Source: Streptomyces wedmorensis
GTDB taxonomy: Bacteria; Actinomycetota; Actinomycetes; Streptomycetales; Streptomycetaceae
DNA length: 54,383 bases
Direction of reading: 5' to 3'
Assembly (NCBI RefSeq): GCF_000716445.1
Contig: NZ_JNWK01000048.1
Coordinates: 1 to 54,383 of the forward strand
Shown here: positions 51,141 through 54,383 of the stretch, piece by piece
How the letters are laid out: each line of letters opens with the position of its first letter
Position numbering within the stretch: position 1 is the stretch's first letter
Notes under the pieces: model-generated
Databases searched by the model: none
The model's input: the letters and a program-made list of their open reading frames with translations, nothing else
Told to the model about the DNA's origin: nothing
Made by a program: the position numbers and the translations under genes

Positions 51141-53131
51141 GCCGTGCCGTCCCCGTCTTCCATGATCTCTCCTGTCGCCGTGTTCACGGCGGGTGCGGCC
51201 GGGGCCGCCTGGGCGAGGGCCACGACGACCGCCTGCGCGGTCTTCCGGCCCATGCCGGGGACTTCGCAGATCTGCTCGATTGTCGCCTGCCGGAGCCGCT
51301 TCACCGAGCCGAAATGCTTGATCAACGCCTGTTTCCGGGTGTCGCCGAGACCCGGGACCGCGTCCAGGGGGCTGGTCCGGATGCGTTTCGTCCGCTTGGA
51401 CCGCTGGTAACGGATGGCGAAGTCGTGAGCCGTGTCACGCACCCGCTGAAGGAGGTAGAGGCCCTCACTGGAACGCGGCAGCACCACCGGATCGTCGTCG
51501 CCGGGCAGCCACACCTCCTCCAGGCGCTTGGCGAGCCCGCAGACCGCGATGTCGTCGATGCCCAGCTCGTCGAGGGCCCGACGGGCCGCGGCGACCTGCG
51601 GCTGCCCGCCGTCGACCACCACGAGCTGCGGCGGGTACGCGAAGCGCTTGGGCCGCCCGTCGTCCTCGGCCGGGACCTCGCCGTCGCCGGGCCCCTCCCC
51701 GTCGGCGGCCGGCCCCCACTCCCCCGTCCTGTCCTTCTCGGCGAGGTAGCGCTTGAACCGGCGGCTGATCACCTCGTGCATCGACCGGACGTCGTCCTGG
51801 CCCTCGAAGCCCTTGATCTGGAAGCGGCGGTACTCGCTCTTGCGGGGCAGCCCGTCCTCGAACACCACCATCGAGGCCACGACGTCCTCGCCCTGGAGGT
51901 GCGAGATGTCGAAGCACTCGATCCGCAGCGGCGCCGACTCCAGGTCCAGGGCCTCGGCGATCTCCTCCAGGGCCCGGGAGCGGGTGGTCAGGTCGCTGGC
52001 CCGCTTCGTCTTGTGCAGCACCAGCGCCTGCTGCGCGTTGCGCGCGACCGTCTCCATCAGGTCCTTCTTGTCGCCGCGCTGCGGGACCCGCAGCGAGACG
52101 CCGGCCCCGCGGCGGCCGGAGAGCCAGGCCGTGACGGCCTCGACGTCCTCCGGCAGCGCCGGGACCAGGACCTCCTTCGGCACCGTGTCGCCGCTCTCCT
52201 CGCCGTACAGCTGCTGGAGCGCGTGCTCGACGAGGCCGGCCGTGTCGACGGCCTCGACCTTGTCCGTGACCCAGCCGCGCTGGCCCCGGACACGTCCCCC
52301 GCGGACGTGGAAGATCTGGACGGCGGCCTCCAGCTCGTCCTCGGCGAGGGCGATCAGGTCGGCGTCGGTCGCGTCGGCGAGGACGACGGCGCTCTTCTCC
52401 ATCGCCCGGCGCAGCGCCTCTATGTCGTCCCGGAGCCTGGCGGCCTTCTCGTACTCCATGTCCTCGGCCGCGATCGTCATCTGCTTCTCGAGCCGGCGGA
52501 TGTACGTGCCGGTGCGGCCGGCCATGAAGTCGCAGAACTCATCCGCCAGTTCACGGTGCTCCTCCGGCGTCACCCGGCCGACGCAGGGCGCCGAGCACTT
52601 GCCGATGTAGCCGAGGAGGCAGGGCCGGCCGGCCGACGCCGCGTTCCGGAACACGCCCGCCGAGCAGGTGCGGACGGGGAAGACCCGCAGCATCAGGTCG
52701 ACGGTCTCGCGGATCGCCCACGCGTGCCCGTACGGCCCGAAGTACCGCACGCCCTTCTTCTTCTGGCCGCGCATGACCTGGACCCGCGGGAACTCCTCGT
52801 TCAACGTCACCGCGAGGTACGGATAGCTCTTGTCGTCCCGGTACTTGACGTTGAACCGCGGGTCGTACTCCTTGATCCAGGTGTACTCCAGCTGCAGCGC
52901 CTCGACCTCGGTCGACACCACGGTCCACTCCACCGAGGCCGCGGTCGTCACCATCGTGGCCGTGCGCGGGTGCAGGCTCGTGAGCGGCTGGAAGTAGTTC
53001 GCCAAGCGCTGGCGGAGGGACTTCGCCTTGCCCACGTAGATCACCCTGCGGTGCTCGTCGCGGAACTTGTAGACCCCCGGGGAGTCGGGGATCTGACCCG
53101 GCTTGGGGCGGTAGCTGGAGGGGTCTGCCAT
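51137..53131 (-). CDS. uvrC: UvrC, excinuclease ABC subunit C
   Basis: A 664-residue nuclease subunit making both cuts in nucleotide excision repair. Domains in order: GIY-YIG (residues about 17-95, [28 protein letters not shown]), a cysteine cluster ([28 protein letters not shown]), the UvrB-binding UVR motif ([27 protein letters not shown]), the RNase H-like C-terminal nuclease ([32 protein letters not shown]) and tandem helix-hairpin-helix ([36 protein letters not shown]). The ATG at 53131 is chosen at [21 protein letters not shown] 7 nt upstream suggests a leaderless start, and an SD-like GGGGAG lies too close to be used. Confidence 0.97.
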
Positions 53132-53138
53132 GCTCCCC

Positions 53139-53144
53139 ACCCTA
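53139..53144 (-). promoter_or_regulatory. -10 element of the uvrC-rapZ-yvcK-whiA operon (leaderless)
   Basis: TAGGGT on the minus strand ends 7 nt before the uvrC ATG. All four genes downstream overlap, so this may be the main promoter feeding whiA; whiA may also have internal promoters I cannot see. Confidence 0.5.
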
Positions 53145-53189
53145 CTGGCGGGGACCGACACTCCGGCCTCGCGCACTCGTTTGCGAAGC

Positions 53190-53954
53190 ATGGCGAATCA
53201 TGATGCGGAAACGACTCACGGACGGCTCGCGGACCGGGTGTGCGTGATCACGGGCGCGGCGAGCGGCATCGGACGGGCGACGGTCGAACGGTTCCTCCGC
53301 GAAGGGGCCCACGTGGTGGCCGCCGACCGCGACGCGGACCGCCTCGCGACGCTGGAAGGGGTCGTCCCCGTGGTCGGCGACGTGTCCCGGGACGACGACG
53401 CCAAGCGGATGATCGCCACGGCGGTCGACCGCTTCGGACGGCTCGACGTCCTCGTCGCCAACGCGGGCGTGATCCCGCTGCTCTCCATCACCGAGGCGGA
53501 GGCGTCCGACTTCGACGAGGTGATGGCCATCGATGGCCGAGGCATGTTCCTGACCTGCAAGTACGCCATCGAGGCCATGCTCGTCTCCGGCGGCGGGGCC
53601 ATCGTCTGCACCTCGTCCATCTCCGGCGTGGCCGGCCAGGCGCGGCAGGCCGTCTACGGCCCCGCCAAGTTCGTCGCCACCGGCCTCACCAAGCACCTCG
53701 CGGTGGAGTGGGCGCAGCACGGCATCCGCGTCAACGCGGTGGCACCCGGGACCATCGAGACCGAACGGGTCGCCGCCGCGCGGCACGAGCCCGGCGGGCC
53801 CGAGTACCTCGCCGAGGTCGTCCGCGCCCATCCCATGGCGCGCTTCGGCGAGCCCTCCGAGGTCGCCTCCGCCATCCTCTTCCTCGCCTCCCCCGACGCC
53901 TCCTTCATCACCGGCGCCATCCTCCCCGTGGACGGCGGCTACCTGGCCCACTGA
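53190..53954 (+). CDS. SDR-family oxidoreductase
   Basis: A 254-residue complete short-chain dehydrogenase. Seen: the NAD(P) motif [18 protein letters not shown], Asp after the second strand (VVAADRD) suggesting NAD preference, [17 protein letters not shown] (NAG), the catalytic Ser in [11 protein letters not shown], Tyr and Lys in [34 protein letters not shown] and the end [16 protein letters not shown]. The substrate is unknown. I start at the ATG at 53190 because the preceding in-frame codons overlap the uvrC promoter. It diverges from uvrC. The downstream 430 bp hold no gene. Confidence 0.9.
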
Positions 53955-54000
53955 CCACCGTCCACCCGTCGCCGTACGGGCCTGCGCCCGCCGCACCCCC

Positions 54001-54028
54001 GTGTGGGGCGGTGCGTGTGGGGCGGTGC
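54001..54028. repeat. 14-bp tandem duplication
   Basis: GTGTGGGGCGGTGC occurs twice with no gap (54001-54014, 54015-54028). Confidence 0.85.
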
Positions 54029-54040
54029 CCACCCCCGCGC

Positions 54041-54084
54041 CCGTCGCCCGCTGCCGTGTGGGCCTGCGCCCGCTGCCGTGTGGG
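54041..54084. repeat. 22-bp tandem repeat, two full units plus a diverged third
   Basis: Units 54041-54062 and 54063-54084 differ at only two positions (core CGCCCGCTGCCGTGTGGG). A third, longer unit (54085-54112) runs into the first hairpin element. Each unit ends in CCGTGTGGG, the 5' arm of that hairpin element, so the array looks like amplification of the arm. Confidence 0.75.
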
Positions 54085-54103
54085 CCTTCGCCCTCGCCCA
54101 CCG

Positions 54104-54149
54104 CCGTGTGGGCGATCGTCCCGCTGGGGCGGGACGGGTGGGCACACGG
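54104..54149 (+). repeat. Structured hairpin element, copy 1
   Basis: Outer stem CCGTGTG/CACACGG (54104-54110 with 54143-54149), internal loop GGCGAT versus GGTGGG, inner stem CGTCCCGC/GCGGGACG (54117-54124 with 54129-54136), apical loop TGGG. The loop sequences are shared with copy 2, while both stems differ by compensating substitutions. Confidence 0.75.
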
Positions 54150-54262
54150 GACGGCGCCCTCGGCGGCGCCTCCGCCCCTTGTGCCTGGACCCGCCCCGAT
54201 ACGGCGTCGCACTCCGGGTGCGGGTTCAGGCGCGGAAGCCTGGGCCCGGCAAGGGCCGCCGT

Positions 54263-54310
54263 CCGTTGTGCCCACCCGTTCCGCCCCAGCGGAACGAATG
54301 CCCACAACGG
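54263..54310 (-). repeat. Structured hairpin element, copy 2 (inverted)
   Basis: Read on the minus strand: outer stem CCGTTGTG/CACAACGG, internal loop GGCATT versus GGTGGG, inner stem CGTTCCGC/GCGGAACG, apical loop TGGG. It has the same architecture and loops as copy 1 but lies in the opposite orientation 113 bp away. Confidence 0.75.
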
Positions 54311-54383
54311 GCGGGGCGAAGGCCCACAACGCGGGGGCGGGGCCGCAACGGGCGGGGCGCAGGCGCGGGGGTGGGTACCGCCC

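Follow-up and report, generated by a model that had tools for sequence, protein, structure and literature searches.

Two imperfect hairpins, one an inverted copy of the other, lie near the end of a contig of Streptomyces wedmorensis, and the question is what kind of sequence they represent. A preliminary description of this DNA left three options, namely an RNA motif, a DNA hairpin bound by a protein, and a miniature mobile repeat. The evidence laid out below makes it probable that the pair belongs to a REP/REPIN-like, non-autonomous mobile element of Streptomyces. The window, i.e., the whole stretch of DNA that was analysed, is 54,383 nucleotides long; the features of the locus, together with sites elsewhere that were used for comparison, are collected in Table 1.

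Architecture of the element

Inspection of the sequence confirmed what had been reported for this place, two inverted hairpins with constant loops and matched differences in their stems. Written out segment by segment, the left copy reads CCGTGTG / GGCGAT / CGTCCCGC / TGGG / GCGGGACG / GGTGGG / CACACGG on the forward strand, and the right copy, taken on the reverse strand from 54310 to 54263, reads CCGTTGTG / GGCATT / CGTTCCGC / TGGG / GCGGAACG / GGTGGG / CACAACGG. A covariance model of the family (R1), built on 105 hairpins, matches the left hairpin at 54103-54150 on the minus strand and the right hairpin with an E-value of 6.2e-16; the spacer between the two model matches is 112 nt long.

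Both hairpins are the ends of a single palindromic element of about 210 bp, whose arms (54090-54170 and 54243-54323) are 78% complementary. An alignment of 23 copies from the same genome, some of them cut by contig ends, has this core of about 210 bp in common, while the loop of the central spacer hairpin differs from copy to copy; the other copies are adjoined by arrays of approximately 22-bp units similar to those found here, in differing lengths. The units of the left flank resemble half a hairpin. On the right, the window stops inside the array at 54383 because the contig ends there, leaving the downstream neighbour off the contig; on the left, the dehydrogenase-like gene stops at 53954, 149 bp before the left hairpin.

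Each hairpin is a polar unit. In the commonest, G-C class, conservation runs about 40 nt upstream of the hairpin (10.2, 4.5, 2.6 and 3.5 bits per 10 nt) but ends shortly beyond it on the downstream side (8.0, 1.2, 0.2 and 0.4 bits), and in the doublet the conserved upstream tails of the two hairpins face each other. The unit is an asymmetric, imperfect hairpin of about 48 nt with a conserved upstream tail, and the full form consists of two such units, inverted around a spacer of about 112 nt, which could fold either as two small hairpins or as a single very long one.

Table 1. Features of the window, loci of a second hairpin, and sites compared between the S. wedmorensis genome and its relatives
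Feature	Position	Strand	Description
Left hairpin	54104..54149	+	7-bp outer stem, internal loop GGCGAT/GGTGGG, 8-bp inner stem, TGGG loop
Right hairpin, inverted copy	54263..54310	+	8-bp outer stem CCGTTGTG/CACAACGG, 8-bp inner stem CGTTCCGC/GCGGAACG
Spacer, inverted-repeat arms around a central hairpin	54150..54262	.	Alignment of 23 own-genome copies, DNA fold
Central spacer hairpin	54183..54231	.	54183-54194 facing 54220-54231 (sequence and copy alignment)
Left flank	54040..54103	.	Degenerate array of ~22-bp units (CCGTGTGGGCCTGCGCCC...); direct-repeat families D1, D2
Right flank	54311..54383	.	Array of ~22-bp units, ended by contig end; families D3, D4; inverted repeats I2-I4
Upstream gene	53130..53954	+	Short-chain dehydrogenase-like; Pfam PF13561, E 6.5e-63
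Second hairpin loci	L125:1790-1860, L089:1844-1922, L088:4966-5041, L093, L107, L123, L151, L157, L160, L170, L173, L181, L189		
Doublet and arrays	C79 72k		Gaps of 43, 65 and 115 bp in G004, G162 and G015
Doublet and arrays	C79 92k		Gap of 50 bp in G015 and of 118 bp in G162; G004 has other sequence, ~1 kb
Doublet and arrays	C79 12k		58 bp in G004; ~214 bp without hairpin match in G162
Doublet and arrays	C44 75.7k		Gap of 37 bp in G015 and of 55 bp in G004; in G162 ~350 bp with no hairpin match
Solitary first-type hairpin (L297)	C79 99k (99099-99145)		Inside called gene; lacking in G015, G004 and G162
Element in opposite orientations	C44 67k (67331-67538)		Also in G004 (C2:1693788) and G162 (C33:167821), opposite orientation; lacking in G015
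Compared site	C79 49k		No clean empty site in comparison
Degenerate hairpin	C44 60k		Partly alignable in G004 and G162

Folded as RNA on either strand, the left and right hairpins are more stable than dinucleotide-preserving shuffles, with z between -3.56 and -6.96 over the four combinations of copy and strand and none of 200 shuffles folding as well in any of them. The entire 210 nt fold as one long hairpin (as DNA, -95.7 kcal/mol, z -9.65). The strand that reads GTGGGC gives the more stable fold in both window copies (-32.3 versus -27.1 and -29.4 versus -26.4 kcal/mol), which favours a structured RNA, regulatory RNA or sRNA, acting from one strand. Against such an RNA, a search of Rfam with positions 53000-54383 returned three matches, all below threshold (21.5, 20.5 and 18.1 bits versus gathering cut-offs of 50, 32 and 43). 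The match of 20.5 bits resembles a Guanidine-II riboswitch, lies at 53358-53394 on the minus strand inside the dehydrogenase gene, and is probably due to chance.

Copies in the genome and in the genus

The hairpin pair in the window is not a chance occurrence. A BLAST search of the same genome with a 294-bp region gave 113 matches, many of them partial; the palindrome matches on both strands, so that there are fewer places than matches. The R1 model, with 150 of 22073 first-look candidates scored, gave at least 95 hairpins. Fifty of these 95 stand in close pairs, less than 400 bp apart, and all 25 pairs are in -/+ order, i.e., have the same inverted layout as the pair at the contig end, with a spacing of 112-119 nt in 18 of them. 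The remaining 45 have no partner within 400 bp, some owing to the end of a contig. Among the 76 hairpins on contigs of known extent, 22 are within 300-400 bp of a contig end; the hairpins help to explain assembly breaks, and are worth considering in 3'-end and small-RNA data from Streptomyces. On contig C2, two hairpins on the same strand, about 1 kb apart, enclose one called gene that by eye is not transposase-like.

A covariance-model search of Streptomyces, proposed in the preliminary description, yielded many further copies with the same loop set. Beyond the genome of origin, 99 of 197 genomes of the order were positive with R1, all in one of six genera, in a sample that consists mostly of that genus and has few genomes of the others. 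With the 210-bp element as BLAST query (E up to 0.001), matches came from 108 of 199 congeners, in some cases a single weak one. In a class-wide sample of 246 genomes from 103 genera there were 13 positives, of which 12, the genome of origin included, are from the same genus, and the thirteenth has one marginal match (E 6.6e-4). These model and BLAST surveys scored a capped number of candidates in each genome; the copy numbers they give are minima, and a single weak match could be due to chance. A pattern scan of sequence records produced at least 117 stretches, 80 of them named and the other 37 used unnamed; among the named records listed, 79 of 80 belong to Streptomyces, the remaining one carrying the label Actinobacteria bacterium (exact hairpin-pattern match). 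Among the genomes searched, the family is nearly completely restricted to the single genus Streptomyces. No description of it was found in the open-access papers that were searched.

One 48-bp hairpin variant, used as query against plasmid and phage collections (in which records of this genome or near ones may be absent), had no match, and the family pattern had none in viral contigs. The first of these results counts against a mobile element, since some mobile elements would be expected in such collections. Together they fit a site at which a chromosome-organising protein would bind double-stranded or cruciform DNA, as do the symmetry of the two strands and the fact that many genomes carry tens of copies. 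However, no match was found in about half of the genus, the copies are polymorphic between close relatives (see below), and the asymmetric upstream tail is not needed in a site of this kind, so that we regard a chromosomal protein site as improbable.

Paired changes in the stems

The matched differences between the two stems had been taken as a sign of selection for structure. The structure is conserved throughout the genus; selection is not proven by the pairing, as the template switching that corrects palindromes can produce paired changes in a single step. Moreover, the left/right difference is common to most of the 23 aligned copies from the same genome, and because of this it represents, within that genome, mainly one inherited difference and not many independent paired events.

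It is other species that supply independent evidence for the predicted pairing. Most of the inner-stem bases and the internal loops were fixed in the scan pattern, in which both sides of the fourth inner pair could take any base, so that only free pairs are evidence of covariation in the named set. This fourth pair is Watson-Crick in all 86 hairpins of the 80 loci (one at the edge of a stretch left out), in 83 of 83 distinct rows aligned by the model at the same 80 loci, and in 152 of 152 distinct hairpins picked by pattern, rows with N or near an edge having been dropped (105 G-C, 30 T-A and 17 C-G). The covariation score of alignment A1 is 0.277, compared to 0.106 (sd 0.007) in shuffled alignments and at most 0.105 with the partners slid; nine of its 18 pairs are invariant, mostly since the pattern had fixed them. 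Covariation of the stem is also what a one-stranded structured RNA would display.

It is possible, though in our opinion doubtful, that the paired changes are not selected at all, i.e., that intra-strand template switching in the course of replication corrects quasi-palindromes, both arms at once, and that the family is plain repetitive DNA. The uniformly Watson-Crick state of the 152 and 83 hairpins, with no G-U intermediates, fits one-step correction as well as it fits selection. Correction alone, however, should erase loops that are not fully complementary, and the internal loops (CCCACC / AnTGCC) are constant; in the named set this constancy is partly by construction, as the loops belong to the search pattern, but it is also seen in the copies from the same genome that were found by BLAST. 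Pairs changed on one strand alone, which the preliminary description had named as evidence against selection, occur to a small extent and persist, a further difficulty for correction: in the genome of origin, the variable inner pair is uncompensated in four of 35 distinct rows, twice as C-A and twice as T-G. These four include a broken hairpin, and the set of 35 includes three hairpins taken from the opposite strand. The constant, non-complementary loops argue that something beyond palindrome correction keeps the hairpin in shape.

Position relative to genes

Genes were called with a home-made caller, based on GC content by codon position and looked over on the window only. The 127 hairpins of the 117 loci comprise 91 in separate gaps that could be classified, 21 at the edges of stretches, eight inside called genes and seven in gaps already counted. 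The 91 gaps are convergent in 38 cases, co-directional in 53 and divergent in none, compared to 39, 236 and 106, respectively, of 381 hairpin-free control gaps of at least 60 bp (Fisher p 2.8e-11 for the convergent excess and 8.8e-12 for the divergent deficit). In 43 of the 53 co-directional gaps, the hairpin is closer to the 3' end of the upstream gene. The genome of origin has 13 convergent, nine co-directional and two divergent sites among 27, with three at edges, and 12, 44 and 24 among 80 control gaps; the two of 24 sites called divergent count against the reading as a mobile element. With respect to the co-directional genes, the hairpin is on the same strand in 27 cases and on the opposite strand in 26. 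Hairpins of this family sit at the 3' ends of genes without strand preference.

The lack of orientation speaks against the RNA motif in its one-stranded form. The sense-strand counts of G-U versus A-C (30/18, 7/18 and 28/23 in three sets) likewise have no consistent strand bias, and we consider a one-stranded RNA very improbable in spite of the stem covariation and the fold stability described above.

The same placement can be read differently, with the family being primarily a functional 3'-end element, either a bidirectional terminator or an RNA-stabilising hairpin under selection, whose copies would arise by local duplication and recombination instead of transposition. Avoidance of divergent gaps, enrichment at convergent ends, stable folds on both strands, and the absence of strand preference all speak for this, the last being what a hairpin that works in two directions would show. 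There are also parallels in the literature: S. clavuligerus is reported to have many structured transcript ends that lack a U-tract (PMC8269248), and short RNAs of S. coelicolor and E. coli map partly to palindromes, many of them in 3' UTRs (PMC4681348). The stem-loops of S. clavuligerus resemble the hairpins studied here in lacking a U-tract, and bidirectional ends are described there too (PMC8269248); they are, however, mapped ends with many different sequences, whereas ours form one sequence family.

Several observations are at odds with a primary role at 3' ends. No U-tract is found 3' of the window hairpins, where the sequence is G/C-rich, and the downstream flank consensus of 152 hairpins contains no T-run, unlike a canonical intrinsic terminator. 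Relatives lack copies at corresponding 3' ends, no match was obtained in about half of the congeners sampled, and avoidance of promoters alone predicts the same placement. A primary 3'-end function seems to us unlikely, if still worth keeping in mind, and the best reading is that of a mobile element tolerated, or used, as a 3'-end hairpin.

In the search for an autonomous parent element, the 182 proteins encoded beside the hairpins of the 117 loci were clustered. No group exceeds five members; the groups of that size come from recurrent sites and by eye resemble ordinary genes, and no recurrent transposase family was seen by eye among these neighbours.

Presence and absence in close relatives

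Eight sites of the S. wedmorensis genome (G000 in our numbering), on contigs C79 and C44, were compared with the relatives G015, G004 and G162 (Table 1). At four of the eight, a doublet is present in the first genome versus a gap of 37-118 bp in at least one relative. None of the relatives has the solitary hairpin of C79 99k; their aligned stretches are shorter by 21-36 nt, in multiples of three. Conversely, G162 has an element on contig C31 (680k) for which no counterpart was found at the corresponding position of the other three genomes. Element presence is lineage-specific between close relatives.

At C44 67k, the calls of orientation rest on identities of 84% vs 71% and 81% vs 77% for the two orientations of a near-palindrome; the opposite orientation suggests either inversion between the element arms or independent insertion. 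This site, C79 49k and C44 60k, three of the eight, offer no clean empty site, which counts against mobility. In the named collection, seven groups of orthologous sites were recognised by eye: three loci share one site and orientation, and the others differ in orientation or position. The flanking arrays blur the element borders at the empty sites, where no target duplication of the kind that marks a MITE of a known insertion sequence was legible.

Judged from these between-species alignments, in which no movement was observed as such, gain rather than loss would be the more parsimonious account of the empty sites. Of the three options of the preliminary description, the miniature mobile repeat is supported by dispersal, presence or absence at matching sites, and the fixed layout of doublets.

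Relationship to REPs and REPINs

REPs are described as high-copy sequences that form inverted dimers and are placed downstream of genes and between convergent ORFs (PMC3733652). The Streptomyces hairpins resemble the GTAG and CGTC super-families of REPs in being short intergenic hairpins with many copies, often in inverted dimers, in their location mostly downstream of genes, between convergent or co-directional ORFs, and in family size that varies by species; they differ in their length of 46-48 nt, in the constant internal loop, and in the absence of a conserved GTAG/CGTC tag (PMC3733652). By eye, neither 105 aligned hairpins nor the flank profiles of 152 have a conserved GTAG or CGTC beside the outer stem; a CGTC does occur just upstream of the right hairpin of the window and also in the class most like it. 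Untagged REP-like palindromes are known from M. tuberculosis, D. radiodurans, Bordetella, Brucella and cyanobacteria (PMC3733652); these, too, lack a conserved end tag, and the Streptomyces family is defined by a loop set of its own. The terms 'streptomyces' and 'actinobacter' are absent from the main text of that source.

The likeness to REPINs extends to the inverted doublet, the less conserved spacer, and the folding into one long hairpin (PMC3116915). REPINs, in contrast, move with a RAYT, and the Streptomyces element, about 210 bp long, has no associated Y1 transposase (PMC3116915 for the former). The Y1 family (PF01797) has no match in the genome of origin and is present in 66 of 199 congeners; the hairpin is found in 38 of these 66 and in 70 of the 133 without Y1 (p 0.55, no association). 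In six other genomes the best BLAST match is 1e-38 or better, and five of these lack Y1 (G004, G015, G162, G076 and G143) and one has it (G098). On these grounds we rejected Y1/RAYT as the present driver in this genome, though not as a past one. The element behaves like a REPIN; as it lacks both the tag and the RAYT, it is not classified among them.

How a mobile hairpin of this kind might persist can be sketched as follows. The element would spread in the form of a DNA hairpin that some enzyme, in this genome no recognisable Y1 transposase, mobilises in trans; copies would survive at places where they disrupt neither promoters nor genes; and a copy once established would probably have a secondary role as a strong hairpin at the 3' ends of transcripts arriving from both sides, a role that has been proposed for classical REPs. 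A bolder version, which we consider rather unlikely as a whole, is a transposition system specific to Streptomyces, in which REPIN-like doublets are served by a non-Y1/RAYT enzyme and a second small hairpin element also lands in the hairpins, with nesting leading to long palindromic arrays between genes.

If the reading as a REP-like mobile hairpin is right, such hairpins are a widespread intergenic repeat, found in about half of the sampled Streptomyces genomes, and would have spread there without the transposase that is thought to drive REPs elsewhere. What moves untagged REPs would then become directly testable in well-studied laboratory Streptomyces.

A second hairpin and neighbouring repeats

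A second small hairpin (CTCCCCCA ... GGGGGGACCCCCA) is found nested in the first at recurrent points, i.e., in the outer 5' arm, after CCCACC, and in the apical loop, where by eye it replaces about 4-5 bases. In the 117 loci, which were picked for the first hairpin, 12 of 14 matches to the pattern of the second lie, by eye, inside copies of the first; among 21 matches in loci fetched by the second-hairpin pattern itself, one is nested by rule and two by eye. The second hairpin is present in 85 of 121 congeners, with no control matches and none in the S. wedmorensis genome. At L083, L140 and L190, a GC-rich repeat (GGGGCGCGGGGAACTGCGCG and its reverse complement) adjoins the first hairpin. At L276, a copy of the second hairpin is, by eye, apparently within coding sequence, which suggests that it can insert into genes.
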